From Tomocerus qinae (taxonomy: Eukaryota; Arthropoda; Collembola; Entomobryomorpha; Tomoceridae): DNA of 64,000 bases. A model generated the notes under the pieces. That model was not told where the DNA came from. It searched no databases and saw only the letters and a list, made by a program, of their open reading frames with translations. The position numbers and the translations under genes are program-made. Shown here one piece after another: positions 1 through 64,000 of the stretch (position 1 is the first letter of the stretch; each line of letters starts with the position of its first letter). The stretch is from the NCBI GenBank assembly GCA_020055645.1, contig JAECZT010000029.1, forward strand, positions 21,008-85,007, given 5' to 3'.

Positions 1-3000
1 TTACAGCATTTCAAGTGTTGAATATCATTTTTTAAACTTTTACGCTTCGTACAAGTGTTAAATTATGAATTTTAAAATTTCAAGTCTTGAATATCATTTT
101 TTAAACTTTTACGTCTCGTACAAGTGTTAAATTATGAATTTCAACTCTTGAAAATTATTTTGTAAGCTTTTTGTCCCGTACAAGTATTAAATCATCAATT
201 TTAACTCTTGAAAATTATTTTTTAAGCTTTTTGGCTCGTAGAAGTTTAAAAAAATTTAAACTGTTGAATGTTATTTTTAAGCTTTTTGGCTCGTACAAGT
301 ATTAAATCATGAATTTTAACTCTTGAAAATTATTTTTTAAGCTTTTTGGCTGGCACAAGTTTAAAAAATAATTAAAACTGTTGAATGTTATTTTTAAGCT
401 TTTTGGCTCGTACAAGTTTAAAAAATAATTAAAACTGTTGAATGTTATTTTTAAGCTTTTTGGCTCGTACAAGTTTAAAAAATAATAAAAACTGTTGAAT
501 GTTATTTTTAAGCTTTTTGGCTCGTACAAGTATTAAATCATGAATTTGAACTCTTGAAAATTATTTTTTAAGCTTTTTGGCTCGTACAAGTATTAAATCA
601 TTAATTTCAACTCTTGAAAATTATTTTTTAAGCTTTTTGGCTCGTACAAGTGTTAAATTATGAATTACAGCATTTCAAGTGTTGAATATCATTTTTTAAA
701 CTTTTACGCCTCGTACAAGTTTTAAATAATGAATTTTTAAATTTCAAGTCTTGAATATCATTTTTTAAACTTTTACGCCTCGTACAAGTTTAAAAAATAA
801 TTAAAACTGTTGAATGTTATTTTTAAGCTTTTCGGCTCGTACAAGTGTTAAATAATGAATTTTTAAATTTCAAGTCTTGAATATCTTTTTTTAAACTTTT
901 ACGCCTCGTACAAGTGTTAAATTATGAATTTTAAAATTTCAAGTCTTGAATATCATTTTTTAAACTTTTACGTCTCGTACAAGTGTTAAATTATGAATTT
1001 CAACTCTTGAAAATTATTTTGTAAGCTTTTTGTCCCGTACAAGTATTAAATCATCAATTTTAACTCTTGAAAATTGTTTTTTAAGCTTTTTGGCTCGTAC
1101 AAGTTTAAAAAATAATTAAAACTGTTGAATGTTATTTTTAAGCTTTTTGGCTCGTACAAGTATTAAATCATGAATTTTAACTCTTGAAAATTATTTTTAA
1201 GCTTTTTGGCTCGTACAAGTTTAAAAAATAATTAAAACTGTTGAATGTTATTTTTAAGCTTTTTGGCTCGTACAAGTATTAAATCATGAATTTTAACTCT
1301 TGAAAATTATTTTTTAAGCTTTTTGGCTCGTACAAGTTTAAAAAATAATTAAAACTGTTGAATGTTATTTTCAAGCTTTTTTTCACGTACAAGTATTAAA
1401 TCATGAATTTCAACTCTTGAAAATTATTTTTTAAGCTTTTTGGCTCGTACAAGTGTTAAATTATGAATTACAGCATTTCAAGTGTTGAATATCATTTTTT
1501 AAACTTTTACGCCTCGTACAAGTGTTAAATTATGAATTTCAACTCTTGAAAATTATTTTGTAAGCTTTTTGTCCCGTACAAGTATTAAATCATCAATTTT
1601 AACTCTTGAAAATTATTTTTTAAGCTTTTTGGCTCGTAGAAGTTTAAAAAATAATTTAAACTGTTGAATGTTATTTTTAAGCTTTTTGGCTCGTACAAGT
1701 ATTAAATCATGAATTTTAACTCTTGAAAATTATTTTTTAAGCTTTTTGGCTGGCACAAGTTTAAAAAATAATTAAAACTGTTGAATGTTATTTTTAAGCT
1801 TTTTGGCTCGTACAAGTTTAAAAAATAATTAAAACTGTTGAATGTTATTTTTAAGCTTTTTGGCTCGTACAAGTTTAAAAAATAATAAAAACTGTTGAAT
1901 GTTATTTTTAAGCTTTTTGGCTCGTACAAGTATTAAATCATGAATTTGAACTCTTGAAAATTATTTTTTAAGCTTTTTGGCTCGTACAAGTATTAAATCA
2001 TTAATTTCAACTCTTGAAAATTATTTTTTAAGCTTTTTGGCTCGTACAAGTGTTAAATTATGAATTACAGCATTTCAAGTGTTGAATATCATTTTTTAAA
2101 CTTTTACGCCTCGTACAAGTGTTAAATCATGAATTTCAACTTTTGAAAATTATTTTTTAAGCTTTTTGGCTCGTACAAGTTTAAAAAATAATTAAAACTG
2201 TTCAATGTTATTTTCAAGCTTTTTTTCACGTACAAGTATTAAATCATGAATTTCAACTCTTGAAAATTATTTTTTAAGCTTTTTGTCCCGTACAAGTGTT
2301 AAATTATGAATTTTTAAATTTCAAGTCTTGAATATCATTTTTTAAACTTTTACGCCTCGTACAAGTGTTAAATTATGAATTTTAAAATTTCAAGTCTTGA
2401 ATATCATTTTTTAAACTTTTACGTCTCGTACAAGTGTTAAATTATGAATTTCAACTCTTGAAAATTATTTTGTAAGCTTTTTGTCCCGTACAAGTATTAT
2501 ATCATCAATTTTAACTCTTGAAAATTATTTTTTAAGCTTTTTGGCGCGTAGAAGTTTAAAAAATAATTTAAACTGTTGAATGTTATTTTTAAGCTTTTTG
2601 GCTCGTACAAGTATTAAATCATGAATTTTAACTCTTGAAAATTATTTTTTAAGCTTTTTGGCTCGTACAAGTTTAAAAAAATTTAAACTGTTGAATGTTA
2701 TTTTTAAGCTTTTTGGCTCGTACAAGTATTAAATCATGAATTTTAACTCTTGAAAACTATTTTTTAAGCTTTTTGGCTCGTACAAGTTTAAAAAATAATT
2801 AAAACTGTTGAATGTTATTTTCAAGCTTTTTTTCACGTACAAGTATTAAATCATGAATTTTAACTCTTGAAAATTATTTTTTAAGCTTTTTGGCTCGTAC
2901 AAGTGTTAAATTATGAATTACAGCATTTCAAGTGTTGAATATCATTTTTTAAACTTTTACGCCTCGTACAAGTGTTAAATAATGAATTTTTAAATTTCAA

Positions 3001-3338
3001 GTCTTGAATATCATTTTTTAAACATTTACGCCTCGTACAAGTGTTAAATTATGAATTTTTAAATTTCAAGTCTTGAATATCATTTTTTAAACTTTTACGT
3101 CTCGTACAAGTGTTAAATTATGAATTTCAACTCTTGAAAATTATTTTGTAAGCTTTTTGTCCCGTACAAGTATTAAATCATGAATTTCAACTCTTGAAAA
3201 TTATTTTTTAAGCTTTTTGGCTCGTACAAGTTTAAAAAATAATTAAAACTGTTGAATGTTATTTTTACGCTTTTTGGCTCGTACAAGTATTAAATCATGA
3301 ATTTTAACTCTTGAAAATTATTTTTTAAGCTTTTTGGC
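1..3338. repeat. HOR block: units 1-5
   Basis: There are five HOR units. Unit 1 (1-641, left end cut) is C*-Ct-Ag-Ac-B-A-BBB-A-A, with a 2-bp deletion in its first B near 250. Unit 2 (642-1,444, 803 bp) has a B inserted among its C monomers: C*-C-B-C-Ct-Ag-Ac-BABABA. Unit 3 (1,445-2,041, 597 bp) is the 666-bp form without Ct. Unit 4 (2,042-2,894, 853 bp) is C*-A-B-A-C-Ct-Ag-Ac-BABABA. Unit 5 (2,895-3,338, 444 bp) is C*-C-Ct-Ag-A-B-A. No other content was found. Confidence 0.88.
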
Positions 3339-12000: not shown

Positions 12001-12763
12001 TGGCTCGTACAAGTGTTAAATTATGAATTACAGCATTTCAAGTGTTGAATATCATTTTTTAAACTTTTACGCCTCGTACAAGTTTTAAATAATGAATTTT
12101 TAAATTTCAAGTGTTGAATATCATTTTTTAAACTTTTACGCCTCGTACAAGTTTTAAATAATGAATTTTTAAATTTCAAGTGTTGAATATCATTTTTTAA
12201 ACTTTTAGGCCTCGTACAAGTGTTAAATAATGAATTTTTAAATTTCAAGTCTTGAATATCATTTTTTAAACTTTTACGCCTCGTACAAGTGTTAAATTAA
12301 TAATTTTAAAATTTCAAGTCTTGAATATCATTTTTTAAACTTTTACGTCTCGTACAAGTGTTAAATTATGAATTTCAACTCTTCAAAATTATTTTGTAAG
12401 ATTTTTGTCCCGTACAAGTATTGAATCATCAATTTTAACTCTAGAAAATAATTTTTTAAGCTTTTTGGCGCGTAGAAGTTTAAAAAATAATTTAAACTGT
12501 TGAATGTTATTTTTAAGCTTTTTGGCTCGTACAAGTATTAAATCATGAATATTAACTCTTGAAAATTATTTTTTAAGCTTTTTGGCTCGCACAAGTATTA
12601 AATCATGAATTTCAACTCTTGAAAATTATTTTTTAAGCTTTTTGGCTCGTACAAGTTTAAAATATAATTAAAACTGTTGAATGATACTTTCAAGCTTTTT
12701 GGCCCGTACAAGTATTAAATCATGAATTTCAACTCTTGAAAATTATTTTGTAAGCTTTTTGGC
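9038..12763. repeat. HOR block: units 13-17 (part)
   Basis: The units are: 9,038-10,066 (1,029 bp, three C, Ag-Ac, then six B-A pairs, the fifth A being an Ac); 10,067-10,765 (699 bp, five C, Ag-Ac, BABA); 10,766-11,338 (573 bp, four C, Ag-Ac, B-A-A); 11,339-12,004 (666 bp canonical); and the head of a 1,227-bp unit that starts at 12,005. That last unit joins a 573-type head with the aagattttt Ag to a 666-type tail (second Ac at 12,764). It therefore looks like a fusion of two unit types. Confidence 0.87.
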
Positions 12764-15700
12764 TCGTACAAGTATTAAATCATCAATTTTAACTCTTGAA
12801 AATTATTTTTTAAGCTTTTTGGCTCGTAGAAGTTTAAAAAATAATTTAAACTGTTGAATGTTATTTTTAAGCTTTTTGGCTCGTACAAGTATTAAATCAT
12901 GAATTTTAACTCTTGAAAATTATTTTTTAAGCTTTTTGGCTGGCACAAGTTTAAAAAATAATTAAAACTGTTGAATGTTATTTTTAAGCTTTTTGGCTCG
13001 TACAAGTTTAAAAAATAATTAAAACTGTTGAATGTTATTTTTAAGCTTTTTGGCTCGTACAAGTTTAAAAAATAATAAAAACTGTTGAATGTTATTTTTA
13101 AGCTTTTTGGCTCGTACAAGTATTAAATCATGAATTTGAACTCTTGAAAATTATTTTTTAAGCTTTTTGGCTCGTACAAGTATTAAATCATTAATTTCAA
13201 CTCTTGAAAATTATTTTTTAAGCTTTTTGGCTCGTACAAGTGTTAAATTATGAATTACAGCATTTCAAGTGTTGAATATCATTTTTTAAACTTTTACGCC
13301 TCGTACAAGTTTTAAATAATGAATTTTTAAATTTCAAGTGTTGAATATCATTTTTTAAACTTTTACGCCTCGTACAAGTTTTAAATAATGAATTTTTAAA
13401 TTTCAAGTGTTGAATATCATTTTTTAAACTTTTAGGCCTCGTACAAGTGTTAAATAATGAATTTTTAAATTTCAAGTCTTGAATATCATTTTTTAAACTT
13501 TTACGCCTCGTACAAGTGTTAAATAATGAATTTTTAAATTTCAAGTCTTGAATACACTTTTTTAAACTTTTACGCCTCGTACAAGTGTTAAATTATGAAT
13601 TTTAAAATTTCAAGTCTTGAATATCATTTTTTAAACTTTTACGTCTCGTACAAGTGTTAAATTATGAATTTCAACTCTTGAAAATTATTTTGTAAGCTTT
13701 TTGTCCCGTACAAGTATTATATCATCAATTTTAACTCTTGAAAATTATTTTTTAAGCTTTTTGGCGCGTAGAAGTTTAAAAAATAATTTAAACTGTTGAA
13801 TGTTATTTTTAAGGTTTTTGGCTCGTACAAGTATTAAATCATGAATATTAACTCTTGAAAATTATTTTTTAAGCTTTTTGACTCGTACAAGTTTAAAAAA
13901 TAATTAAAACTGTTGAATGTTATTTTTAAGCTTTTTGGCTCGTACAAGTATTAAATCATGAATTTTAACTCTTGAAAACTATTTTTTAAGCTTTTTGGCT
14001 CGTACAAGTTTAAAAAATAATTAAAACTGTTGAATGTTATTTTCAAGCTTTTTTTCACGTACAAGTATTAAATCATGAATTTTAACTCTTGAAAATTATT
14101 TTTTAAGCTTTTTGGCTCGTACAAGTGTTAAATTATGAATTACAGCATTTCAAGTGTTGAATATCATTTTTTAAACTTTTACGCCTCGTACAAGTGTTAA
14201 ATAATGGATTTTTAAATTTCAAGTGTTGAATATCATTTTTTCAACTTTTACGCCTCGTAAATGTGTTAAATAATGAATTTTTAAATTTCAAGTCTTGAAT
14301 ATCATTTTTTAAACTTTTACGCCTCGTACAAGTGTTAAATTAATAATTTTAAAATTTCAAGTCTTGAATATCATTTTTTAAACTTTTACGTCTCGTACAA
14401 GTGTTAAATTATGAATTTCAACTCTTCAAAATTATTTTGTAAGATTTTTGTCCCGTACAAGTATTGAATCATCAATTTTAACTCTTGAAAATTATTTTTT
14501 AAGCTTTTTGGCGCGTAGAAGTTTAAAAAATAATTTAAACTGTTGAATGTTATTTTTAAGCTTTTTGGCTCGTACAAGTATTAAATCATGAATATTAACT
14601 CTTGAAAATTATTTTTTAAGCTTTTTGGCCCGTACAAGTATTAAATCATGAATTTCAACTCTTGAAAATTATTTTGTAAGCTTTTTGGCTCGTACAAGTG
14701 TTAAATTATGAATTACAGCATTTCAAGTGTTGAATATCATTTTTTAAACTTTTACGCCTCGTACCAGTGTTAAATTATGAATTTTAAAATTTCAAGTCTT
14801 GAATATCATTTTTTAAACTTTTACGTCTCGTACAAGTGTTAAATTATGAATTTCAACTCTTGAAAATTATTTTGTAAGCTTTTTGTCCCGTACAAGTATT
14901 AAATCATAATTAAAACTGTTGAATGTTATTTTTAAGCTTTTTGGCTCGCACAAGTATTAAATCATGAATTTCAACTCTTGAAAAATATTTTTTAAGCTTT
15001 TTGGCTCGTACAAGTTTAAAATATAATTAAAACTGTTGAATGATACTATCAAGCTTTTTGGCCCGTACAAGTATTAAATCATGAATTTCAACTCTTGAAA
15101 ATTATTTTGTAAGCTTTTTGGCTCGTACAAGTGTTAAATTATGAATTACAGCATTTCAAGTCTTGAATACACTTTTTTAAACTTTTACGCCTCGTACAAG
15201 TGTTAAATTATGAATTTTTAAATTTCAAGTCTTGAATATCATTTTTTAAACTTTTACGTCTCGTACAAGTGTTAAATTATGAATTTCAACTCTTGAAAAT
15301 TATTTTGTAAGCTTTTTGTCCCGTACAAGTATTAAATCATCAATTTTAACTCTTGAAAATTATTTTTTAAGCTTTTTGGCTCGTAGAAGTTTAAAAAATA
15401 ATTTAAACTGTTGAATGTTATTTTTAAGCTTTTTGGCTCGTACAAGTATTAAATCATGAATTTTAACTCTTGAAAATTATTTTTTAAGCTTTTTGGCTGG
15501 CACAAGTTTAAAAAATAATTAAAACTGTTGAATGTTATTTTTAAGCTTTTTGGCTCGTACAAGTTTAAAAAATAATTAAAACTGTTGAATGTTATTTTTA
15601 AGCTTTTTGGCTCGTACAAGTTTAAAAAATAATAAAAACTGTTGAATGTTATTTTTAAGCTTTTTGGCTCGTACAAGTATTAAATCATGAATTTGAACTC

Positions 15701-16055
15701 TTGAAAATTATTTTTTAAGCTTTTTGGCTCGTACAAGTATTAAATCATTAATTTCAACTCTTGAAAATTATTTTTTAAGCTTTTTGGCTCGTACAAGTGT
15801 TAAATTATGAATTACAGCATTTCAAGTGTTGAATATCATTTTTTAAACTTTTACGCCTCGTACAAGTGTTAAATTATGAATTTTAAAATTTCAAGTGTTG
15901 AATATCATTTTTTAAACTTTTACGCCTCGTACAAGTGTTAAATTAATAATTTTAAAATTTCAAGTCTTGAATATCATTTTTTAAACTTTTACGTCTCGTA
16001 CAAGTGTTAAATTATGAATTTCAACTCTTCAAAATTATTTTGTAAGATTTTTGGC
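12764..16055. repeat. 3,292-bp super-repeat, copy 1
   Basis: It begins at the Ac monomer at 12,764 and contains the rest of unit 17, then an 885-bp unit (13,232-14,116), a 573-bp unit (14,117-14,689), a 433-bp unit (14,690-15,122), a 666-bp unit (15,123-15,788) and the head of a 735-bp unit. Copy 2 starts directly at 16,056. Private variants found in both copies are aataatggattt near 14,203 and 17,496, cctcgtaaatgtg near 14,254 and 17,547, gtaccagtg near 14,762 and 18,053, and tgatactatc near 15,044 and 18,336. Confidence 0.92.
14888..14945. repeat. A/B hybrid monomer (58 bp)
   Basis: It starts as A (tattaaatcat) and switches to B (aattaaaactgttgaatgtta). In the second 3,292-bp copy the equivalent position, near 18,180, is a normal A with gaatatt. 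The hybrid therefore probably arose in copy 1 after the duplication, or was replaced in copy 2. Confidence 0.85.
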
Positions 16056-19000
16056 TCGTACAAGTATTAAATCATCAATTTTAACTCTTGAAAATTATTT
16101 TTTAAGCTTTTTGGCTCGTAGAAGTTTAAAAAATAATTTAAACTGTTGAATGTTATTTTTAAGCTTTTTGGCTCGTACAAGTATTAAATCATGAATTTTA
16201 ACTCTTGAAAATTATTTTTTAAGCTTTTTGGCTGGCACAAGTTTAAAAAATAATTAAAACTGTTGAATGTTATTTTTAAGCTTTTTGGCTCGTACAAGTT
16301 TAAAAAATAATTAAAACTGTTGAATGTTATTTTTAAGCTTTTTGGCTCGTACAAGTTTAAAAAATAATAAAAACTGTTGAATGTTATTTTTAAGCTTTTT
16401 GGCTCGTACAAGTATTAAATCATGAATTTGAACTCTTGAAAATTATTTTTTAAGCTTTTTGGCTCGTACAAGTATTAAATCATTAATTTCAACTCTTGAA
16501 AATTATTTTTTAAGCTTTTTGGCTCGTACAAGTGTTAAATTATGAATTACAGCATTTCAAGTGTTGAATATCATTTTTTAAACTTTTACGCCTCGTACAA
16601 GTGTTAAATTATGAATTTTAAAATTTCAAGTGTTGAATATCATTTTTTAAACTTTTACGCCTCGTACAAGTTTTAAATAATGAATTTTTAAATTTCAAGT
16701 GTTGAATATCATTTTTTAAACTTTTAGGCCTCGTACAAGTGTTAAATAATGAATTTTTAAATTTCAAGTCTTGAATATCATTTTTTAAACTTTTACGCCT
16801 CGTACAAGTGTTAAATAATGAATTTTTAAATTTCAAGTCTTGAATACACTTTTTTAAACTTTTACGCCTCGTACAAGTGTTAAATTATGAATTTTAAAAT
16901 TTCAAGTCTTGAATATCATTTTTTAAACTTTTACGTCTCGTACAAGTGTTAAATTATGAATTTCAACTCTTGAAAATTATTTTGTAAGCTTTTTGTCCCG
17001 TACAAGTATTATATCATCAATTTTAACTCTTGAAAATTATTTTTTAAGCTTTTTGGCGCTTACAAGTTTAAAAAATAATTTAAACTGTTGAATGTTATTT
17101 TTAAGCTTTTTGGCTCGTACAAGTATTAAATCATGCATATTAACTCTTGAAAATTATTTTTTAAGCTTTTTGGCTCGTACAAGTTTAAAAAATAATTAAA
17201 ACTGTTGAATGTTATTTTTAAGCTTTTTGGCTCGTACAAGTATTAAATCATGAATTTTAACTCTTGAAAACTATTTTTTAAGCTTTTTGGCTCGTACAAG
17301 TTTAAAAAATAATTAAAACTGTTGAATGTTATTTTCAAGCTTTTTTTCACGTACAAGTATTAAATCATGAATTTTAACTCTTGAAAATTATTTTTTAAGC
17401 TTTTTGGCTCGTACAAGTGTTAAATTATGAATTACAGCATTTCAAGTGTTGAATATCATTTTTTAAACTTTTACGCCTCGTACAAGTGTTAAATAATGGA
17501 TTTTTAAATTTCAAGTGTTGAATATCATTTTTTCAACTTTTACGCCTCGTAAATGTGTTAAATAATGAATTTTTAAATTTCAAGTCTTGAATATCATTTT
17601 TTAAACTTTTACGCCTCGTACAAGTGTTAAATTAATAATTTTAAAATTTCAAGTCTTGAATATCATTTTTTAAACTTTTACGTCTCGTACAAGTGTTAAA
17701 TTATGAATTTCAACTCTTCAAAATTATTTTGTAAGATTTTTGTCCCGTACAAGTATTGAATCATCAATTTTAACTCTTGAAAATTATTTTTTAAGCTTTT
17801 TGGCGCGTAGAAGTTTAAAAAATAATTTAAACTGTTGAATGTTATTTTTAAGCTTTTTGGCTCGTACAAGTATTAAATCATGAATATTAACTCTTGAAAA
17901 TTATTTTTTAAGCTTTTTGGCCCGTACAAGTATTAAATCATGAATTTCAACTCTTGAAAATTATTTTGTAAGCTTTTTGGCTCGTACAAGTGTTAAATTA
18001 TGAATTACAGCATTTCAAGTGTTGAATATCTTTTTTAAACTTTTACGCCTCGTACCAGTGTTAAATTATGAATTTTAAAATTTCAAGTCTTGAATATCAT
18101 TTTTTAAACTTTTACGTCTCGTACAAGTGTTAAATTATGAATTTCAACTCTTGAAAATTATTTTGTAAGCTTTTTGTCCCGTACAAGTATTAAATCATGA
18201 ATATTAACTCTTGAAAATTATTTTTTAAGCTTTTTGGCTCGCACAAGTATTAAATCATGAATTTCAACTCTTGAAAAATATTTTTTAAGCTTTTTGGCTC
18301 GTACAAGTTTAAAATATAATTAAAACTGTTGAATGATACTATCAAGCTTTTTGGCCCGTACAAGTATTAAATCATGAATTTCAACTCTTGAAAATTATTT
18401 TGTAAGCTTTTTGGCTCGTACAAGTGTTAAATTATGAATTACAGCATTTCAAGTCTTGAATACACTTTTTTAAACTTTTACGCCTCGTACAAGTGTTAAA
18501 TTATGAATTTTTAAATTTCAAGTCTTGAATATCATTTTTTAAACTTTTACGTCTCGTACAAGTGTTAAATTATGAATTTCAACTCTTGAAAATTATTTTG
18601 TAAGCTTTTTGTCCCGTACAAGTATTAAATCATCAATTTTAACTCTTGAAAATTATTTTTTAAGCTTTTTGGCTCGTAGAAGTTTAAAAAATAATTTAAA
18701 CTGTTGAATGTTATTTTTAAGCTTTTTGGCTCGTACAAGTATTAAATCATGAATTTTAACTCTTGAAAATTATTTTTTAAGCTTTTTGGCTGGCACAAGT
18801 TTAAAAAATAATTAAAACTGTTGAATGTTATTTTTAAGCTTTTTGGCTCGTACAAGTTTAAAAAATAATTAAAACTGTTGAATGTTATTTTTAAGCTTTT
18901 TGGCTCGTACAAGTTTAAAAAATAATAAAAACTGTTGAATGTTATTTTTAAGCTTTTTGGCTCGTACAAGTATTAAATCATTAAATTTGAACTCTTGAAA

Positions 19001-19080
19001 ATTATTTTTTAAGCTTTTTGGCTCGTACAAGTATTAAATCATTAATTTCAACTCTTGAAAATTATTTTTTAAGCTTTTTG
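16056..19080. repeat. 3,292-bp super-repeat, copy 2 (incomplete at right)
   Basis: This matches 12,764-15,788 at an offset of 3,291-3,294 bp through units at 16,524 (885 bp), 17,409 (573 bp), 17,982 (434 bp) and 18,416. It ends where copy 1 has C* (15,789) but copy 2 continues with an A of the gaatatt type. It differs from copy 1 at the monomer near 18,187, which is an ordinary A here and an A/B hybrid in copy 1, and by single-base changes. The unit starting at 18,416 therefore runs 844 bp, with three extra monomers (A, B ending tttcacg, A) after its A-A. Confidence 0.9.
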
Positions 19081-22000: not shown

Positions 22001-22106
22001 TTAAAAAATAATTAAAACTGTTGAATGTTATTTTCAAGCTTTTTTTCACGTACAAGTATTAAATCATGAATTTTAACTCAAAAAATTATTTTTTAAGCTT
22101 TTTGGC
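19081..22106. repeat. HOR block: units 27-30 plus the end of unit 26
   Basis: After the end of unit 26 come 19,260-20,005 (746 bp, four C, Ag-Ac, BABABA), 20,006-20,892 (887 bp, C*-Ag-Ac-B-A-BBB-A followed by BABABA), 20,893-21,498 (606 bp, C*-Ct-Ag-Ac-B-A-BBB-A) and 21,499-22,106 (608 bp, C*-Ct-Ag-Ac-BABABA). Three of the four end with the shortened A reading aactcaaaaaatt. The 887-bp unit places a 666-type tail before a BABABA tail, so it is a second fusion unit. Confidence 0.87.
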
Positions 22107-25100: not shown

Positions 25101-25393
25101 TTTTAAATTTCAAGTCTTGAATATCATTTTTTAAACTTTTACGCCTCGTACAAGTGTTAAATTAATAATTTTAAAATTTTAAGTCTTGAATATCATTTTT
25201 TAAACTTTTACGTCTCGTACAAGTGTTAAATTATGAATTTCAACTCTTGAAAATTATTTTGTAAGCTTTTTGTCCCGTACAAGTATTGAATCATCAATTT
25301 TAACTCTTGAAAATTATTTTTTAAGCTTTTTTTCACGTACAAGTATTAAATCATGAATTTTAACTCAAAAAATTATTTTTTAAGCTTTTTGGC
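22107..25393. repeat. 3,287-bp super-repeat, copy 1 (units 31-35)
   Basis: Five units occur in the order 669, 818, 597, 817 and 386 bp, starting at 22,107, 22,776, 23,594, 24,191 and 25,008. The same order of unit types as 3,339-7,087 (666, 1,285, 596, 816, 386) shows common descent with that block. The 464-bp length difference lies in the second unit, which has fewer B-A pairs here. Shared private variants are cgcttcg, the eight-T run with gtacaattg, gcgttttggctg, and the paired gtaaaag and aatcatt changes in the B triplet. Confidence 0.92.
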
Positions 25394-26947: not shown

Positions 26948-27015
26948 TCGTACAAGTGTTAAATAATGAATTTTTAAATTTCAAGTCTTGAAAATTATTT
27001 TGTAAGCTTTTTGTC
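26948..27015. repeat. C/Ag hybrid monomer (68 bp)
   Basis: The first part is C (gttaaataatgaattttt, aatttcaagtcttg). It then switches to Ag (aaaattattttgtaag, end gtccc). It stands where Ct and Ag would normally be two monomers, so it removes about one monomer from the hub of the 610-bp unit. Confidence 0.88.
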
Positions 27016-40949: not shown

Positions 40950-41066
40950 GCGTAGAAGTTTAAAAAATAATTTAAACTGTTGAATGTTATTTTTAAGCTT
41001 TTTGGCTCGTACAAGTATTAAATCATGAATATTAACTCTTGAAAATTATTTTTTAAGCTTTTTGGC

Positions 41067-51745: not shown

Positions 51746-53351
51746 TCGTACAAGTGTTAAATTATGAATTACAGCATTTCAAGTGTTGAATATCATTTTT
51801 TAAACTTTTACGCCTCGTACAAGTGTTAAATTATGAATTTTAAAATTTCAAGTCTTGAATATCATTTTTTAAACTATTACGTCTCGTACAAGTGTTAAAT
51901 TATGAATTTCAACTCTTGAAAATTATTTTTTAAGCTTTTTGGCTCGTAGAAGTTTAAAAAATAATTTAAACTGTTGAATGTTATTTTTAAGCTTTTTGGC
52001 TCGTACAAGTATTAAATCATGAATTTTTTAACTCTTGAAAATTATTTTTTAAGCTTTTTGGCTCGTACAAGTTTAAAAAATAATTAAAATTGTTGAATGT
52101 TATTTTTAAGCTTTTTGGCTCGTACAAGTTTAAAAAATAATTAAAACTGTTGAATGTTATTTTTAAGCTTTTTGGCTCGTACAAGTATTAAATCATGAAT
52201 TTCAACTCTTGAAAATTATTTTTTAAGCTTTTTGGCTCGTACAAGTATTAAATCATGAATTTCAACTCTTGAAAATTATTTTTTAAGCTTTTTGGCTCGT
52301 ACAAGTTTAAAAAATAATTAAAACTGTTGAATGTTATTTTTAAGCTTTTTAGCTCGTACAAGTATTAAATCATGAATTTTTACAGCATTTCAAGTATTGA
52401 AATGTATTTTTTAAGCTTTTTGGCTCGTACAAGTATTAAATTATGAATTTTAAAATTTCAACACTTGAATATTATTTTTTAGGCTTTTTGGCTCGTACAA
52501 GTATTAAATCAAGAATTTCAACTCTTGAAAATTATTTTGTAAGCTTTTGGGCTCGTACAAGTATTAAATTATGAATTACAGCATTTCAATTTTTGAAAAT
52601 TAATTTTTAAGCTTTTTGGCTCGTACAAGTGTTAAATAATGAATTTTTAAATTTCAAGTGTTGAATGTTATTTTTAAGCTTTTTGGCTCGTACAAGTATT
52701 AAATCATGAATTTCAACTCTTGAAAATTATTTTTTAAGCTTTTTGGCTCGTACAAGTATTAAATTATGAATTTCAACTCTTGAAAATTATTTTTTAAGCT
52801 TTTTGGCTCGTACAAGTATTAAATCATCAATTTTAACTCTTGAAAATTATTTTTTAAGCTTTTTGGCTCGTACAAGTTTAAAAAATAATTAAAACTGTTG
52901 AATGTTATTTTTAAGCTTTTTGGCTCGTACAAGTATTAAATCATGAATTTTAACTCTTGAAAATTATTTTTTAAGCTTTTTGGCTCGCACAAGTATTAAA
53001 TCATGAATTTCAACTCTTGAAAATTATTTTTTAAGCTTTTTGGCTCGTACAAGTGTTAAATTATGAATTACAGCATTTCAAGTGTTGAATATCATTTTTT
53101 AAACTTTTACGCCTCGTACAAGTTTTAAATCATGAATTTTAACTCTTGAAAATTATTTTTTAACCTTTTTGGCTCGTACAAGTGTTAAATTATGAATTTC
53201 AACTCTTGAAAATTATTTTGTAAGCTTTTTGTCCCGTACAAGTATTAAAAAATAATTAAAACTGTTGAATGTTATTTTTAAGCTTTTTGGCTCGTACAAG
53301 TATTAAATCATTAATTTCAACTCTTGAAAATTATTTTTTAAGCTTTTTGGC
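51746..53351. repeat. Irregular, A-rich and hybrid-rich stretch (units 74-75)
   Basis: Only 51,746-51,883 (C*-Ct) and 53,045-53,113 (C*) look like normal unit heads. Between them lie mostly A and B monomers in no canonical order. A cluster of atypical monomers occupies 52,354-52,687, with lengths 71, 68, 60, 68 and 67 bp. Four of these five combine C-type and A- or B-type halves. Unit 75 (53,045-53,351, 307 bp) is C*-A-Ag-B-A with a 58-bp B. The Ct-Ag-Ac hub is absent through this stretch. Confidence 0.85.
52354..52687. repeat. Cluster of five atypical monomers, four of them hybrids
   Basis: Monomer lengths are 71, 68, 60, 68 and 67 bp. The first is an A left half with tttacagcatttcaag inserted and an A right half. 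The second is C-like with caacacttgaatatt and taggc. The third is an A with tcaagaatttc. The fourth is C*-like to gcatttcaat, then A (ttttgaaaattaattttt). The fifth is C to gtgttg, then B (aatgttattttt). This is the highest density of class mixing in the window. Confidence 0.85.
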
Positions 53352-53627
53352 TCGTACAAGTGTTAAATTATGAATTACAGCATTTCAAGTGTTGAATATC
53401 ATTTTTTAAACTTTTACGCCTCGTACAAGTGTTAAATAATGAATTTTTAAATTTCAAGTCTTGAATATCATTTTTTAAACTTTTACGCCTCGTACAAGTG
53501 TTAAATAATGAATTTTTAAATTTCAAGTCTTGAATATCATTTTTTAAACTTTTAGGCCTCGTACAAGTGTTAAATAATGAATTTTTAAATTTCAAGTCTT
53601 GAATACACTTTTTTAAACTTTTACGCC
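53352..53627. repeat. Run of four C monomers at the head of unit 76
   Basis: Four 69-bp C monomers (C*, C, C ending aggcc, C with acactt) fill exactly 276 bp. They head an 816-bp unit that ends at 54,167. They lie immediately left of the first 1,344-bp tandem copy, so the duplication boundary falls at or near the start of Ct in this unit. Confidence 0.88.
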
Positions 53628-54971
53628 TCGTACAAGTGTTAAATTATGAATTTTAAAATTTCAAGTCTTGAATATCATTTTTTAAACTTTTACGTCTCGT
53701 ACAAGTGTTAAATTATGAATTTCAACTCTTGAAAATTATTTTGTAAGCTTTTTGTCCCGTACAAGTATTATATCATCAATTTTAACTCTTGAAAATTATT
53801 TTTTAAGCTTTTTGGCGCGTAGAAGTTTAAAAATTAATTTAAACTGTTGAATGTTATTTTTAAGCTTTTTGGCTCGTACAAGTATTAAATCATGAATATT
53901 AACTCTTGAAAATTATTTTTTAAGCTTTTTGGCTCGTACAAATTTAAAAAATAATTAAAACTGTTGAATGTTATTTTTAAGCTTTTTGGCTCGTACAAGT
54001 ATTAAATCATGAATTTTAACTCTTGAAAATTATTTTTTAAGCTTTTTGGCTCGTACAAGTTTAAAAAATAATTAAAACTGTTGAATGTTATTTTCAAGCT
54101 TTTTTTCACGTACAAGTATTAAATCATGAATTTTAACTCTTGAAAATTATTTTTTAAGCTTTTTGGCTCGTACAAGTGTTAAATTATGAATTACAGCAAT
54201 TCAAGTGTTGAATATCATTTTTTCAACTTTTACGCCTCGTACAAGTGTTAAATAATGAATTTTTAAATTTCAAGTCTTGAATATCATTTTTTAAACTTTT
54301 ACGCCTCGTACAAGTGTTAAATTAATAATTTTAAAATTTCAAGTCTTGAATATCATTTTTTAAACTTTTACGTCTCGTACAAGTGTTAAATTATGAATTT
54401 CAACTCTTGAAAATTATTTTGTAAGCTTTTTGTCCCGTACAAGTATTAAATCATCAATTTTAACTCTTGAAAATTATTTTTTAAGCTTTTTGGCTCGTAC
54501 AAGTTTAAAAAATAATTAAAACTGTTGAATGTTATTTTTAAGCTTTTTGGCTCGTACAAGTATTAAATCATGAATTTTAACTCTTAAAAATTATTTTTTA
54601 AGCTTTTTGGCTGGTACAAGTTTAAAAAATAATTAAAACTGTTGAATGTTATTTTTAAGCTTTTTGGCTCGTACAAGTTTAAAAAATAATTAAAACTGTT
54701 GAATGTTATTTTTAAGCTTTTTGGCTCGTACAAGTTTAAAAAATAATAAAAACTGTTGAATGTTATTTTTAAGCTTTTTGGCTCGTACAAGTATTAAATC
54801 ATGAATTTGAACTCTTGAAAATTATTTTTTAAGCTTTTTGGCTCGTACAAGTATTAAATCATTAATTTCAACTCTTGAAAATTATTTTTTAAGCTTTTTG
54901 GCTCGTACAAGTGTTAAATTATGAATTACAGCATTTCAAGTGTTGAATATCATTTTTTAAACTTTTACGCC
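53628..54971. repeat. 1,344-bp tandem duplication, copy 1
   Basis: It runs from the Ct monomer of unit 76 through unit 77 (54,168-54,902, 735 bp) to the end of the next C*. The adjacent stretch 54,972-56,315 matches at a constant offset of 1,344 bp. Shared private features are tttaaaaattaattt in the B after Ac (near 53,824 and 55,168), gtacaaattt in a later B, and the C* reading acagcaattcaag (near 54,195 and 55,539) with ttcaac. Confidence 0.92.
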
Positions 54972-56315
54972 TCGTACAAGTGTTAAATTATGAATTTTAA
55001 AATTTCAAGTCTTGAATATCATTTTTTAAACTTTTACGTCTCGTACAAGTGTTAAATTATGAACTTCAACTCTTGAAAATTATTTTGTAAGCTTTTTGTC
55101 CCGTACAAGTATTATATCATCAATTTTAACTCTTGAAAATTATTTTTTAAGCTTTTTGGCGCGTAGAAGTTTAAAAATTAATTTAAACTGTTGAATGTTA
55201 TTTTTAAGCTTTTTGGCTCGTACAAGTATTAAATCATGAATATTAACTCTTGAAAATTATTTTTTAAGCTTTTTGGCTCGTACAAATTTAAAAAATAATT
55301 AAAACTGTTGAATGTTATTTTTAAGCTTTTTGGCTCGTACAAGTATAAAATCATGAATTTTAACTCTTCAAAACTATTTTTTAAGCTTTTTGGCTCGTAC
55401 AAGTTTAAAAAATAATTAAAACTGTTGAATGTTATTTTCAAGCTTTTTTTCACGTACAAGTATTAAATCATGAATTTTAACTCTTGAAAATTATTTTTTA
55501 AGCTTTTTGGCTCGTACAAGTGTTAAATTATGAATTACAGCAATTCAAGTGTTGAATATCATTTTTTCAACTTTTACGCCTCGTACAAGTGTTAAATAAT
55601 GAATTTTTAAATTTCAAGTCTTGAATATCATTTTTTAAACTTTTACGCCTCGTACAAGTGTTAAATTAATAATTTTAAAATTTCAAGTCTTGAATATCAT
55701 TTTTTAAACTTTTACGTCTCGTACAAGTGTTAAATTATGAATTTCAACTCTTGAAAATTATTTTGTAAGCTTTTTGTCCCGTACAAGTATTAAATCATCA
55801 ATTTTAACTCTTGAAAATTATTTTTTAAGCTTTTTGGCTCGTAGAAGTTTAAAAAATAATTTAAACTGTTGAATGTTATTTTTAAGCTTTTTGGCTCGTA
55901 CAAGTATTAAATCATGAATTTTAACTCTTGAAAATTATTTTTTAAGCTTTTTGGCTGGCACAAGTTTAAAAAATAATTAAAACTGTTGAATGTTATTTTT
56001 AAGCTTTTTGGCTCGTACAAGTTTAAAAAATAATTAAAACTGTTGAATGTTATTTTTAAGCTTTTTTGCTCGTACAAGTTTAAAAAATAATAAAAACTGT
56101 TGAATGTTATTTTTAAGCTTTTTGGCTCGTACAAGTATTAAATCATGAATTTGAACTCTTGAAAATTATTTTTTAAGCTTTTTGGCTCGTACAAGTATTA
56201 AATCATTAATTTCAACTCTTGAAAATTATTTTTTAAGCTTTTTGGCTCGTACAAGTGTTAAATTATGAATTACAGCATTTCAAGTGTTGAATATCATTTT
56301 TTAAACTTTTACGCC
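54972..56315. repeat. 1,344-bp tandem duplication, copy 2
   Basis: This direct tandem copy of 53,628-54,971 contains the rest of unit 78 (54,903-55,511, 609 bp), unit 79 (55,512-56,246, 735 bp) and the C* of the next unit. Differences from copy 1 include gaacttcaac in Ag (near 55,061), cttcaaaactat in an A near 55,367 and cttttttgctcg near 56,064. The gaacttcaac change also appears at 56,405 and 61,535. This suggests that the start of a third copy follows before the sequence changes. Confidence 0.92.
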
Positions 56316-57204
56316 TCGTACAAGTGTTAAATTATGAATTTTAAAATTTCAAGTCTTGAATATCATTTTTTAAACTTTTACGTCTCGTACAAGTGTTAAA
56401 TTATGAACTTCAACTCTTGAAAATTATTTTGTAAGCTTTTTGTCCCGTACAAGTATTAAATCATCAATTTTAACTCTTGAAAATTATTTTTTAAGCTTTT
56501 TGGCGCGTAGAAGTTTAAAAAATAATTTAAACTGTTGAATGTTATTTTTAAGCTTTTTGGCTCATACAAGTATATAATCATGAATTTTAACTCTTGAAAA
56601 TTATTTTTTAAGCTTTTTGGCTCCTACAAGTATTAAATCAAGAATTCCAACTGTTGAAAATTATTTTTTAAGCTTTTTGACCCGTACAAGTATTAAATCA
56701 TCAATTTTAACTCTTGAAAATTATTTTTTAAGCTTTTTGGCTCGTACAAGTTTAAAAAATAATTAAAACTGTTGAGTGTTATTTTTAAGCTTTTTGGCTC
56801 GTACAAGTTTAAAAAATAATAAAAACTGTTGAATGTTATTTTTAAGCTTTTTGGCTCTTACAAGTATTAAATCATGAATTTCAACTCTTGAAAATTATTT
56901 TTTAAGCTTTTTGGCTCGTACAAGTTTAAAAAATAATTAAAACTGTTGAGTGTTATTTTTAAGCTTTTTGGCTCGTACAAGTTTAAAAAATAATAAAAAC
57001 TGTTGAATGTTATTTTTAAGCTTTTTGGCTCTTACAAGTATTAAATCATGAATTTAATTCTTGAAAATTATTTTTTAAGCTTTTTGGCTCGTACAAGTAT
57101 TAAATCATGAATTTCAACTCTTGAAAATTATTTTTTAAGCTTTTTGGCTCGTACAAGTTTAAAAAATAATTAAAACTGTTGAATGTTATTTTTAAGTTTT
57201 TAGC

Positions 57205-57430
57205 TCGTACAAGTATTAAATCATGAATTTTAACTATTGAAATGTATTCTGTAAGCTTTTTGGCCCGTACAAGTATTAAATCATGAATTTCAACACTTGA
57301 AAATTATTTTTTAGGCTTTTTCACCCGTACAAGTATTAAATCATGAATTTCAACTCTTGAACATTATTTTGTAAGCTTTTGGGCCCGTACAAGTATTAAA
57401 TCATGACTTTTAATTTTTGAAAATTAATTT
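57205..57430. repeat. Diverged A-monomer quartet, first of three copies
   Basis: Consecutive A-class monomers with unusual variants occur here: aactattgaaatgtattctgtaag, then caacacttg with taggctttttcacccg, then cttgaacatt with gtaagcttttgggcccg, then catgacttttaatttttg with aattaatttttaag. The group recurs near 62,336 with the same four members, and near 60,730 with the first three members, where the fourth is an Ac. It gives the right-hand domain a signature not found complete elsewhere in the window. Confidence 0.85.
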
Positions 57431-60400
57431 TTAAGCTTTTTGGCTCGTACAAGTTTAAAAAATAATAAAAACTGTTTAATGTTATTTTTAAGCTTTTTGA
57501 CCCGTACAAGTATTAAATCATCAATTTTAACTCTTGAAAATTATTTTTTAAGCTTTTTGGCTCGTACAAGTTTAAAAATTAATTAAAACTGTTGAATGTT
57601 ATTTTTAAGCTTTTTGGCTCGTACAAGTTTAAAAAATAATAAAAACTGTTGAATGTTAGTTTTAAGCTTTTTGGCTCGTACAAGTATTAAATCATGAATT
57701 TCAACTCTTGAAAATTATTTTTTAAGCTTTTTGGCTCGTACAAGTATTAAATCATTAATTTCAACTCTTGAAAATTATTTTTTAAGCTTTTTGGCTCGTA
57801 CAAGTTTAAAAAATAATTAAAAATGTTGAATGGTATTTTTAAGCATTTTGGCTCGTACAAGTATTAAATCATGAATTTTAAATCTTGAAAATTATTTTTT
57901 AAGCTTTTTGGCTCGTACAAGTCTAAAAAATAATTAAAACTGTTGAATGTTATTTTCAAGCTTTTTTTCACGTACAAGTATTAAATCATGAATTTCAACT
58001 CTTGAAATTTATTTTTTAAGCTTTTTGGCCCGTACAAGTATTAAATCATGAATTTCAACTCTTGAAAATTATTTTGTAAGCTTTTTGGCCCGTACAAGTA
58101 TTAAATCATGAATTTCAACTCTTGAAAATTATTTTGTAAGCTTTTTGGCCCGTACAAGTATTAAATCATCAATTTCAACTCTTGAAAATTATTTTGTAAG
58201 CTTTTTGGCTCGTACAAGTGTTAAATTATGAATTACAGCATTTCAAGTGTTGAATATCATTTTTTAAACTTTTACGCCTCGTACAAGTGTTAAATTATGA
58301 ATTTTAAAATTTCAAGTCTTGAATATCATTTTTTAAACTTTTACGTCTCGTACAAGTGTTAAATTATGAATTTCAACTCTTGAAAATTATTTTGTAAGCT
58401 TTTTGTCCCGTACAAGTATTAAATCATCAATTTTAACTCTTGAAAATTATTTTTAAAGCTTTTTGGCTCGTAAAAGTTTAAAAAATAATTTAAACTGTTG
58501 AATGTTATTTTTAAGCTTTTTGGCTCATACAAGTATTTAATCATGAATTTTAACTCTTGAAAATTATTTTTTAAGCTTTTTGGCTCCTACAAGTATTAAA
58601 TCAAGAATTCCAACTGTTGAAAATTATTTTTTAAGCTTTTTGACCCGTACAAGTATTAAATCATCAATTTTAACTCTTGAAAATTATTTTTTAAGCTTTT
58701 TGGCTCGTACAAGTTTAAAAAATAATTAAAACTGTTGAGTGTTATTTTTAAGCTTTTTGGCTCATACAAGTTTAAAAAATAATATAAACTGTTGAATGTT
58801 AGTTTTAAGCGTTTTGGCTCTTGCAAGTATTAAATCATGAATTTCAACTCTTGAAAATTATTTTTTAAGCTTTTTGGCTCGTACAAGTATTAAATCATTA
58901 ATTTCAACTCTTGAAAATTATTTTTTAAGCTTTTTGGTTCGTACAAGTGTTAAATTATGAATTACAGCATTTCAAGTGTTGAATATCATTTTTTAAACTT
59001 TTACGCCCCGTACAAGTGTTAAATTATGAATTTCAACTCTTGAAAATTATTTTGTAAGCTTTTTGTCCCGTACAAGTATTAAATCATCAATTTTAACTCT
59101 TGAAAATTATTTTTTTAGCTTTTTGACTGGTACAAGTTTAAAAAATAATTAAAACTGTTGAATGTTATTTTCAAGCTTTTTTTTTACGTACAAGTATTAA
59201 ATCATGAATTTCAACTCTTGAAAATTATTATTTAAACTTTTTGGCTCCTACAAGTATTAAATCATGAATTTCAACTGTTGAAAATTATTTTGTAAGCTTT
59301 TTGACCCGTACAAGTATTAAATCATCAATTTTAACTCTTGAAAATTATTTTTTAAGCTTTTTGGCTCGTACAAGTTTAAAAAATAATTAAAACTGTTGAA
59401 TGTTATTTTTAAGCTTTTTGGCTCGTACAAGTTTAAAAAATAATAAAAACTGTTGAATGTTATTTTTAAGCTTTTTGGCTCGTACAAGTATTAAATCATG
59501 AATTTCAACTCTTGAAAATTATTTTTTAAGCTTTTTGGCTCGTACAAGTATTAAATCATGAATTTCAACTCTTGAAAATTATTTTTTAATCTTTTTGGCT
59601 CGTACAAGTTTAAAAAATAATTAAAACTGTTGAATGTTATTTTTAAGCTTTTTGGCTCGTACAAGTATTAAATCATGAATTTTAAATCTTGAAAATTATT
59701 TTTCAAGCTTTTGGGCTTGTACAAGTTTAAAAAATAATAAAAACTGTTGAATGTTATTTTTAAGCTTTTTGGCTCGTCCAAGTATTAAATCATGAATTTC
59801 AACTCTTGAAAATTATTTTTTAAGCTTTTTGGCTCCTATAAGTATTAAATCAAGAATTCCAACTGTTGAAAATTATTTTTTAAGCTTTTTGACCCGTACA
59901 AGTATTAAAACATCAATTTTAACTCTTGAAAATTATTTTTTAAGCTTTTTGGCTCGTACAAGTTTAAAAAATAATTAAAACTGTTGAATGTTATTTTTAA
60001 GCTTTTTTTCACGTACAAGTATTAAATCATGAATTTCAACTCTTGAAAATTATTTTTTAAGCTTTTTGGCTCGTACAAGTATTAAATCATTAATTTCAAC
60101 TCTTGAAAATTATTTTTTAAGCTTTTTGGTTCGTACAAGTGTTAAATTATGAATTACAGCATTTCAAGTGTTGAATATCATTTTTTAAACTTTTACGCCT
60201 CGTACAAGTGTTAAATTATGAATTTCAACTTTTGAAAATTATTTTGTAAGCTTTTTGTCCCGTACAAGTATTAAATCATCAATTTTAACTCTTGAAAATT
60301 ATTTTTTAAGCTTTTTGACTGGTACAAGTTTAAAAAATAATTAAAACTGTTGAATGTTATTTTCAAGCTTTTTTTCACGTAGAGGTATTAAATCATGAAT

Positions 60401-60553
60401 TTCAACTCTTGAAAATTATTTTTTAAACTTTTTGGCTCGTACAAGTTTAAAAATCAATTAAAACGGTTGCATGTTATTTTTAAGCTTTTTGGCTCGTACA
60501 AGTATTTAATCATGAATTTTAACTCTTGAAAATTATTTTTTAAGCTTTTTGGC

Positions 60554-60613
60554 TCGTACAAGTATTAAATCATGAATTTCAACTCTTGAAAATTATTTTT
60601 TAAGCTTTTTGGC
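60554..60613. repeat. Exemplar class A monomer (60 bp)
   Basis: This is a typical A monomer. It has the TCGTACAAGT box, the centre attaaatcatgaatttcaac, then tcttgaaaattatttttt and the end aagctttttggc, which contains a HindIII site (AAGCTT). It holds 15 G/C in 60 bases. A is the commonest class. Frequent subtypes differ at the centre (gaattttaac, gaatttgaac, gaatattaac, cattaatttc, catcaatttt) and at the end (ggctcg, ggcccg, gtcccg, ggcgcg, ggctgg). The following monomer, 60,614-60,673, is another A of the same form. Confidence 0.95.
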
Positions 60614-60909
60614 TCGTACAAGTATTAAATCATGAATTTCAACTCTTGAAAATTATTTTTTAAGCTTTTTGGCTCGTACAAGTTTAAAAAATAATTAAAA
60701 CTGTTGAATGTTATTTTTAAGTTTTTAGCTCGTTCAAGTATTAAATAATGAATTTTAACTATTGAAATGTATTCTGTAAGCTTTTTGGCCCGTACAAGTA
60801 TTAAATCATGAATTTCAACACTTGAAAATTATTTTTTAGGCTTTTTCACCCGTACAAGTATTAAATCATGAATTTCAACTCTTGAACATTATTTTGTAAG
60901 CTTTTGGGC

Positions 60910-63900
60910 CCGTACAAGTATTAAATCATCAATTTTAACTCTTGAAAATTATTTTTTAAGCTTTTTGGCTCGTACAAGTTTAAAAAATAATTTAAACTGT
61001 TGAATGTTATTTTTAAGCTTTTTGGCTCTTACAAGTATTAAATCATGAATTTTAACTCTTGAAAATTATTTTTTAAGCTTTTTGGCTGGCACAAGTTTAA
61101 AAAATAATTAAAACTGTTGAATGTTATTTTTAAGCTTTTTGGCTCGTACAAGTTTAAAAAATAATTAAAACTGTTGAATGTTATTTTTAAGCTTTTTGGC
61201 TCGTACAAGTTTAAAAAATAATAAAAACTGTTGAATGTTATTTTTAAGCTTTTTGGCTCGTACAAGTATTAAATCATGAATTTGAACTCTTGAAAATTAT
61301 TTTTTAAGCTTTTTGGCTCGTACAAGTATTAAATCATTAATTTCAACTCTTGAAAATTATTTTTAAGCTTTTTGGCTCGTACAAGTGTTAAATTATGAAT
61401 TACAGCATTTCAAGTGTTGAATATCATTTTTTAAACTTTTACGCCTCGTACAAGTGTTAAATTATGAATTTTAAAATTTCAAGTCTTGAATATCATTTTT
61501 TAAACTTTTACGTCTCGTACAAGTGTTAAATTATGAACTTCAACTCTTGAAAATTATTTTGTAAGCTTTTTGTCCCGTACAAGTATTAAATCATCAATTT
61601 TAACTCTTGAAAATTATTTTTTAAGCCTTTTGGCGCGTAGAAGTTTAAAAAATAATTTAAACTGTTGAATGTTATTTTTAAGCTTTTTGGCTCATACAAG
61701 TATATAATCATGAATTTTAACTCTTGAAAATTATTTTTTAAGCTTTTTGGCTCCTACAAGTATTAAATCAAGAATTCCAACTGTTGAAAATTATTTTTTA
61801 AGCTTTTTGACCCGTACAAGTATTAAATCATCAATTTTAACTCTTGAAAATTATTTTTTAAGCTTTTTGGCTCGTACAAGTTTAAAAAATAATTAAAACT
61901 GTTGAGTGTTATTTTTAAGCTTTTTGGCTCGTACAAGTTTAAAAAATAATAAAAACTGTTGAATGTTATTTTTAAGCTTTTTGGCTCTTACAAGTATTAA
62001 ATCATGAATTTCAACTCTTGAAAATTATTTTTTAAGCTTTTTGGCTCGTACAAGTTTAAAAAATAATTAAAACTGTTGAATGTTATTTTTAAGCTTTTTG
62101 GCTCGTACAAGTTTAAAAAATAATAAAAACTGTTGAATGTTATTTTTAAGCTTTTTGGCTCTTACAAGTATTAAATCATGAATTTTAACTCTTGAAAATT
62201 ATTTTTTAAGCTTTTTGGCTCGTACAAGTATTAAATCATGAATTTCAACTCTTGAAAATTATTTTTTAAGCTTTTTGGCTCGTACAAGTTTAAAAAATAA
62301 TTAAAACTGTTGAATGTTATTTTTAAGTTTTTAGCTCGTACAAGTATTAAATCATGAATTTTAACTATTGAAATGTATTCTGTAAGCTTTTTGGCCCGTA
62401 CAAGTATTAAATCATGAATTTCAACACTTGAAAATTATTTTTTAGGCTTTTTCACCCGTACAAGTATTAAATCATGAATTTCAACTCTTGAACATTATTT
62501 TGTAAGCTTTTGGGCCCGTACAAGTATTAAATCATGACTTTTAATTTTTGAAAATTAATTTTTAAGCTTTTTGGCTCGTACAAGTTTAAAAAATAATAAA
62601 AACTGTTTAATGTTATTTTTAAGCTTTTTGACCCGTACAAGTATTAAATCATCAATTTTAACTCTTGAAAATTATTTTTTAAGCTTTTTGGCTCGTACAA
62701 GTTTAAAAATTAATTAAAACTGTTGAATGTTATTTTTAAGCTTTTTGGCTCGTACAAGTTTAAAAAATAATAAAAACTGTTGAATGTTAGTTTTAAGCTT
62801 TTTGGCTCGTACAAGTATTAAATCATGAATTTCAACTCTTGAAAATTATTTTTTAAGCTTTTTGGCTCGTACAAGTATTAAATCATTAATTTCAACTCTT
62901 GAAAATTATTTTTTAAGCTTTTTGGCTCGTACAAGTTTAAAAAATAATTAAAAATGTTGAATGGTATTTTTAAGCATTTTGGCTCGTACAAGTATTAAAT
63001 CATGAATTTTAAATCTTGAAAATTATTTTTTAAGCTTTTTGGCTCGTACAAGTCTAAAAAATAATTAAAACTGTTGAATGTTATTTTCAAGCTTTTTTTC
63101 ACGTACAAGTATTAAATCATGAATTTCAACTCTTGAAATTTATTTTTTAAGCTTTTTGGCCCGTACAAGTATTAAATCATGAATTTCAACTCTTGAAAAT
63201 TATTTTGTAAGCTTTTTGGCCCGTACAAGTATTAAATCATGAATTTCAACTCTTGAAAATTATTTTGTAAGCTTTTTGGCCCGTACAAGTATTAAATCAT
63301 CAATTTCAACTCTTGAAAATTATTTTGTAAGCTTTTTGGCTCGTACAAGTGTTAAATTATGAATTACAGCATTTCAAGTGTTGAATATCATTTTTTAAAC
63401 TTTTACGCCTCGTACAAGTGTTAAATTATGAATTTTAAAATTTCAAGTCTTGAATATCATTTTTTAAACTTTTACGTCTCGTACAAGTGTTAAATTATGA
63501 ATTTCAACTCTTGAAAATTATTTTGTAAGCTTTTTGTCCCGTACAAGTATTAAATCATCAATTTTAACTCTTGAAAATTATTTTTTAAGCTTTTTGGCTC
63601 GTAGAAGTTTAAAAAATAATTTAAACTGTTGAATGTTATTTTTAAGCTTTTTGGCTCATACAAGTATTTAATCATGAATTTTAACTCTTGAAAATTATTT
63701 TTTAAGCTTTTTGGCTCCTAAAGTATTAAATCAAGAATTCCAACTGTTGAAAATTATTTTTTAAGCTTTTTGACCCGTACAAGTATTAAATCATCAATTT
63801 TAACTCTTGAAAATTATTTTTTAAGCTTTTTGGCTCGTACAAGTTTAAAAAATAATTAAAACTGTTGAGTGTTATTTTTAAGCTTTTTGGCTCATACAAG

Positions 63901-64000
63901 TTTAAAAAATAATATAAACTGTTGAATGTTAGTTTTAAGCGTTTTGGCTCTTGCAAGTATTAAATCATGAATTTCAACTCTTGAAAATTATTTTTTAATG
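60910..64000. repeat. 5,131-bp super-repeat, copy 2 (runs off the right edge)
   Basis: This matches 55,779-58,869 at an offset of 5,130-5,131 bp up to the last base, so at least 3.09 kb of the second copy is present. Unit starts correspond: 56,247 with 61,377, and 58,210 with 63,341. Differences are small: ggctcgtac in place of gtag after Ac, ggctcttac near 61,023, gaattttaac near 62,181 in place of gaatttaattc near 57,050, and a 1-bp loss in ggctcctaaag near 63,714. Confidence 0.93.

Follow-up and report, generated by a model that had tools for sequence, protein, structure and literature searches.

A stretch of DNA filled from end to end by one repeat raises the question of how its monomers are ordered and what has kept that order. 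The stretch considered here, 64,000 nucleotides long and called the window below, had been described in a first-pass annotation as a single gene-free satellite in which 57-, 60- and 69-bp monomers of one family alternate, with at least three levels of repetition; tandem-repeat finding had been proposed there as a check. The analysis points, with good confidence, to an AT-rich, most likely eukaryotic satellite array shaped by block duplication and deletion, in which exchange has nearly always taken place between like classes of monomer. The window is one head-to-tail array that runs off both ends, comprising 1039 whole monomers with about 24% GC.

Positions 1..64000, + strand: satellite array (TRF 76-63998, GC bins, segmentation).

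The proposed tandem-repeat search, run with TRF on the whole window, returned one period-60 array at 76-63998. Segmentation found the monomers to be contiguous, and the description of a single satellite filling the 64 kb is thereby borne out. The GC content lies between 23.4 and 24.6% in all 32 bins of 2 kb. As far as tested the window is also gene-free: it contains no open reading frame of at least 150 aa, no tRNA gene and no Rfam match reaching the gathering score. With 1039 monomers and no such reading frame, it has the character of satellite DNA, a long head-to-tail non-coding array of tens of kb. Monomers were cut at the anchor CTCGTACAAGT, allowing up to 3 substitutions; two anchors were corrected by hand, a false one being deleted and a missed one inserted. 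The anchor was also sought on the minus strand: allowing 1 substitution gives no match, allowing 2 gives 7 and allowing 3 gives 717, the last being the loose matching expected of AT-rich repeats. Since the plus-strand monomers are contiguous without gaps, we read no inverted stretch in the window. Over positions 1-64000 the observed/expected ratio is 1.37 for CpG and 1.87 for GpC. Transitions at CpG are not in excess (6 of 74 sites vs 31 of 397 other C/G sites), in a test that is blurred by homogenisation; this fits, weakly, a host without germline CpG methylation.

The three monomer lengths were confirmed by the spacing of the anchors, which is 60 bp in 460 cases, 57 bp in 268 and 69 bp in 255. 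The corresponding classes are A (285 monomers, exactly 57 bp in 268), B (486 monomers, exactly 60 bp in 462) and C (268 monomers, exactly 69 bp in 255), the margin of class assignment being small for 12 monomers. Mean edit distances within classes are 3.6 for A, 4.5 for B and 5.3 for C, and those between classes are 12.5 (A-B), 21.0 (A-C) and 18.5 (B-C). Examples of the three classes are as follows.

Positions 396..452, + strand: class A unit, cut from AAGCTT to AAGCTT (exact 22-mer anchors at 396 and 453; class consensus).
Positions 570..629, + strand: class B unit in the same AAGCTT phase (anchors at 570 and 630; class consensus).
Positions 641..709, + strand: class C monomer of 69 bp, subtype c1, cut at CTCGTACAAGT (class consensus, subtype clustering).

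The 275 distinct monomers cluster into 79 subtypes, 32 of which have at least five copies. The first-pass annotation took length class as part of the code; as a signal apart from sequence this is not supported. Length tracks class in 985 of the 1039 monomers, the other 54 having other lengths, and the fine order sits in the 32 commoner subtypes, many of which are equal in length. Length as a code adds little, because length follows sequence class and the subtypes carry the order. The C class has an internal repeat. Subtype c2 contains two direct copies of a shorter sequence (CAAGTGTTAAAT... and CAAGTCTTGAAT...), matched by none of 300 dinucleotide shuffles, and the internal-repeat score of c1 is equalled in 7 of 300; an origin from half-monomers is supported for these two subtypes. 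The same origin for A and B was considered and is unsupported, their scores being reached in 249 (A) and 105 (B) of 300 shuffles.

Ordered units are found throughout the window. They were cut from one run of C monomers to the next, the first and last being cut by the window ends, and rare subtypes were pooled as ax, bx and cx for the order tests, with the controls carrying the same labels. In a typical unit a C-run starts with c1, ends with c3 or c4, and is followed by b3, b2 or b9 and then by a tail. Recurring tails are a3 b1 a4 a1 a1 b1 b4, a5 b5 a1 b7 a2 b6 and a5 b5 b12 a6 b8. The position of c1 as the usual opener is marked: 78 of 87 B-to-C steps enter it, though it makes up only 79 of the 268 C monomers. 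Likewise, b3 or b10 is the entry point in 78 of 88 C-to-B steps, though these two account for only 79 of the 486 B monomers. The 89 units range from 137 to 1964 bp (median 668) and comprise 50 class strings and 81 subtype strings. The ordered units of the first-pass annotation are therefore real, and its size range of 0.4-1.3 kb was too narrow. With units of such varied length and 50 class strings there is no single higher-order repeat (HOR) period.

Long words of subtypes recur far more often than neighbour preferences would produce. Of 1028 positions for a 12-subtype word, 163 carry one that is repeated, compared with none in 100 order shuffles and a mean of 1.4 (maximum 12) in 100 first-order Markov arrays; for 8-subtype words the figure is 381 of 1032, where the Markov arrays average 53 (maximum 104). 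The gap is smaller for words of 5, at 617 of 1035 positions vs a mean of 391 (maximum 480), and from this it follows that short-range order is largely neighbour preference. Across lags of 1-599 monomers, the best lag is 53, at which 18.7% of pairs lie within 2 edits vs 9.1% of random pairs, and no single lag dominates the array. So low a best value, together with the many class strings and the wide range of unit lengths, sets the array apart from canonical (Willard-type) HORs.

The strictest rule of order concerns classes A and C. Only 2 A-C contacts are observed, whereas 2000 shuffles average 147.7 and never fall below 115, and a single monomer provides both of them.

Positions 779..835, + strand: sole A monomer adjoining C, one a1 inside a C-run that makes both A-C contacts (order analysis).

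Neutral block duplication and deletion, usually starting between monomers of the same class, is the most likely source of this rule. A toy simulation was run from a unit of the window, with assumed block lengths, and stopped at 50 distinct unit strings, with 60 runs per setting. When exchange was between like classes only, all 60 runs ended with at most 2 A-C contacts; this setting, at 0% class-blind exchange, forbids such contacts by construction. The number of runs with at most 2 contacts was 36 of 60 at 2% class-blind exchange, 18 at 5%, 5 at 10%, 1 at 20% and none at 50%, and wholly class-blind exchange again gave 0 of 60, with 9-37 contacts. Neutral like-class exchange reproduces the A-C rule in these simulations, so that selection is not required for it.

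Selection could also maintain the observed order, if the alternating lengths set the spacing of nucleosomes or proteins at a centromere and an A-C adjacency were harmful. The near-absence of A-C contacts would agree with this, but the simulated neutral process yields the same rule, and the length of the units is not constant. Some features of the DNA itself also bear on selection. The A-tract spacing of 9.6-11.2 bp is equalled in 4 of 200 shuffled-consensus arrays for the consensus array and in 16 of 200 for the real window, so that phasing is borderline. Folded as single-stranded DNA, c1 and c2 give hairpin z values of -2.8 and -3.2, compared with 0.05 for A and -0.45 for B, and dyad symmetry or non-B DNA is reported at other centromeric satellites, in a literature that includes PMC13081366. 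Yet over distinct monomers of standard length the mean z is only -1.64 for C (n=55), with -0.17 for A (n=66) and -0.40 for B (n=113), and 40% of the 55 distinct 69-bp C monomers fall below -2. The outer pairs of the C stem are mostly invariant and for that reason silent on covariation, several inner pairs are often broken, and inspection of the 55 distinct C monomers found no convincing compensatory change. The predicted C hairpin would then be a weak tendency, with no evidence of a working structure. A cruciform or hairpin function was accordingly set aside as a candidate, only C departing from shuffles and the effect being modest. Nor does the window contain a CENP-B-box-like site at up to 2 mismatches, where 24 are expected in shuffles; the array lacks the box that marks CENP-B-type centromeric satellites. 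Taken with the simulation, these results make selection on class order quite unlikely. A more specific form of the idea is very improbable: the alternation of three lengths would act as a spacing code that is maintained, hairpin-prone C-runs and runs of alternating B and A would represent two states of chromatin within a single centromeric array, and the A-C ban would be selected.

Under the favoured neutral reading, exchange may also occasionally fall within monomers. Among 41 distinct monomers of irregular length, 13 fit a two-class chimera better by at least 4 edits, whereas no monomer of the control set, 179 distinct rare ones with regular length, reaches this gain, the largest being 2. 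Scoring was made against the 12 commonest library monomers per class (of 13 A, 28 B and 14 C), and the threshold of 4 was our choice. Nine of the calls join a 5' part of C with a 3' part of A or B, three are B-A and one is B-C. Two of the 13 are doubtful hybrids: in our reading the call at 43753 is better taken as a truncated B and that at 42620 as a deletion junction. Two examples that need no edits as chimeras follow.

Positions 26947..27014, + strand: hybrid monomer, 5' C / 3' B, 0 edits as a chimera (chimera scoring, regular-length control).
Positions 52620..52686, + strand: hybrid monomer, 5' C / 3' A, 0 edits as a chimera (chimera scoring, regular-length control).

Above the level of units, blocks of many monomers have been duplicated. 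The ungapped listing kept only pairs at least 97% identical, with a highest identity of 99.8%; from it and from the list of units nine block pairs were chosen and aligned with gaps. Their best alignments are 87.0-99.7% identical, or 84.4-99.7% when two alignments of each are counted. Such alike blocks, built of neighbouring monomers that differ by a mean of 10.4 edits, are what is expected of a HOR satellite. Duplicated blocks had been noticed before, with sizes of 1.3-5.1 kb; the blocks stand, and the lower bound drops to about 1 kb. Monomer classes, ordered units and block duplications together make up the three or more levels of repetition originally claimed. The main duplications are listed here.

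Positions 12705..19106, + strand: block duplication with an offset of 3292 bp (12705-14744 vs 15997-18036, 99.4% ungapped).
Positions 21930..28682, + strand: block duplication (21930-25392 vs 25214-28682, 96.7% over 3480 columns, gapped).
Positions 53519..56245, + strand: tandem block duplication (53519-54901 vs 54864-56245, 98.2% over 1383 columns).
Positions 56169..63998, + strand: C-poor domain with a 5131-bp tandem duplication (56169-58868 vs 61300-63998, 99.7% over 2701 columns).

A longer gapped alignment, of 11149-15812 with 14500-19106, is 92.5% identical over 4724 columns. The offsets of the first two duplications are both about 3.29 kb, near 53 monomers; their contents differ and this is possibly a coincidence. 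In the 5131-bp tandem duplication the second copy is cut by the window end. From about 56 kb onward C monomers are rare, with 5 of 67 and 5 of 66 in the two 4-kb bins at the end, the other fourteen bins holding 13-23 each. This C-poor end domain, with its own near-identical tandem unit, looks like a separately amplified sub-array.

Near-identical blocks are typical sites of assembler error, and some of the duplications might be artefacts of assembling a repeat region, above all the 99.7% identical one at the window end. Against this, the best alignment of eight of the nine block pairs has at least 18 mismatches, which a plain copying error would not give, and 81 different subtype strings among 89 units are also unlike such an error. 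The pair at 56169-63998, with only 5 mismatches, is undefended by the mismatch argument. On balance it is unlikely that the block duplications are in part artefacts of assembly.

A bacterial or mobile-element origin, with no eukaryotic satellite involved, was weighed in searches for relatives of the array. Among genome contigs a 51-base pattern had no match, and the spaced anchor pair matched once each in five. Two of these are contigs of WOR-3 MAGs with 57-58 bp AT-rich repeats that contain the anchor word (L002:550-2350 and L004:3950-4149), which could speak for bacteria; their repeats, however, align no better than a shuffled consensus, the score being reached by 9-80 of 100 shuffles in six tests, and the repeats of the other three contigs differ by inspection. 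From their repeats all five were judged unrelated (all of L001, parts of L002-L005). A contig of a Bacteroidetes MAG has a 67-bp tandem repeat (L005:5765-6275) in which the word CCTCGTACAAGT of the array also occurs. Viral contigs had no match to either of two exact patterns, a 29-base word and the spaced anchor pair. With positions 1001-5000 as query, phages and plasmids gave weak AT-rich matches, the best E being 0.3 among the best 20 of 119 phage records and 0.09 among the best 20 of 31 plasmid records, which argues against a mobile element. A bacterial or mobile-element source is thus extremely improbable.

Twelve words of 14-19 bases from the array were absent from open-access papers, and no satellite with monomers of 57, 60 and 69 bp was found in the literature searched by these lengths. 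The comparisons covered viral and genome contigs, phages, plasmids and open-access text, and the family may well be undescribed.

What has to be explained are the classes, the ordered subtypes, the blocks of varied identity, the hybrid-like monomers and the near-absence of A-C contacts, all of them observed directly. An account by neutral block duplication and deletion would begin with an old monomer family that split into three classes differing in length. A C-run with the B/A stretch that follows it may then have been amplified as a higher-order unit. Unequal exchange or copying would have duplicated some units and multi-unit blocks, deleted others and shuffled their arrangement; with nearly all events joining monomers of one class, the order of classes would be kept while unit length drifts. 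Occasional exchange within monomers would yield the hybrids. Unequal crossing-over, gene conversion and rolling-circle reinsertion are alike compatible with this history, and we infer both the exchange mechanism and the eukaryotic host. A heterochromatic, perhaps centromeric or pericentromeric, location is suggested, because arrays of this type are usually eukaryotic and lie in heterochromatin or near centromeres.

It is not necessary to suppose that the array itself encodes anything, and it overturns nothing known. Its classes are easily distinguished and one window holds duplications of varied identity, so that it can be read as a record of how satellite exchange works, useful for modelling satellite turnover. 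From this record, monomers of unlike class would seem to exchange only rarely, even where long stretches of the two are identical.

Several known satellites resemble the array in part. Mouse gamma satellite contains 58/60-bp sub-repeats, and like it the array alternates sub-monomers of slightly different length inside a larger unit. The mouse gamma (major) satellite has one 234-bp unit (PMC2722675), whereas the units of the array vary in length. In Chenopodium, the satellite CficCl-61-40 has longer HOR units that go back to a single short ancestral monomer through divergence and merging, as is proposed for the array; its base monomer is about 40 bp, unlike the 57-69 bp here, and its HOR units are species-specific and were deduced from clones and clustered short reads (PMC6429384). 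PMC5615363 mentions complex HORs in several mammals and insects, and the portion of the review PMC12692304 drawn on here holds nothing bearing on prior description of such a satellite. The nematodes Meloidogyne chitwoodi and M. fallax have complex HORs whose junctions lie at shared motifs, which is attributed to recombination or cut-and-paste (PMC3694981). The array is similar in joining distinct kinds of monomers and in having long and short variants, but the Meloidogyne monomers are about 170 bp long, 32-64% alike and carry a CENP-B-box-like motif (PMC3694981), while the classes of the array are closely related and a search with the CENP-B box itself, as distinct from the nematode variant, found no site.

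A further parallel is with cascading HORs, described for primates, whose canonical units contain some types of monomer more than once (PMC11630843). As in primate cascading alpha satellite (PMC11630843), types recur per unit in the array, with a1 a1 and alternating B/A, and there are variants by loss or gain of monomers. One a1 follows another 26 times, and a unit such as c1 c3 b3 b2 a3 b1 a4 a1 a1 b1 b4 illustrates the recurrence; the likeness extends to the recurrence of types alone, because a canonical unit length is lacking. By description, AT-rich monomers of 57-69 bp, in three lengths, also set the array apart from primate alpha satellite. The contrast with alpha satellite of uniform monomer length, drawn in the first-pass annotation, is fair as a description, although complex and cascading HORs are already in print. 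In kind, the array is an irregular, cascading-type HOR satellite, a form of organization that has already been described.
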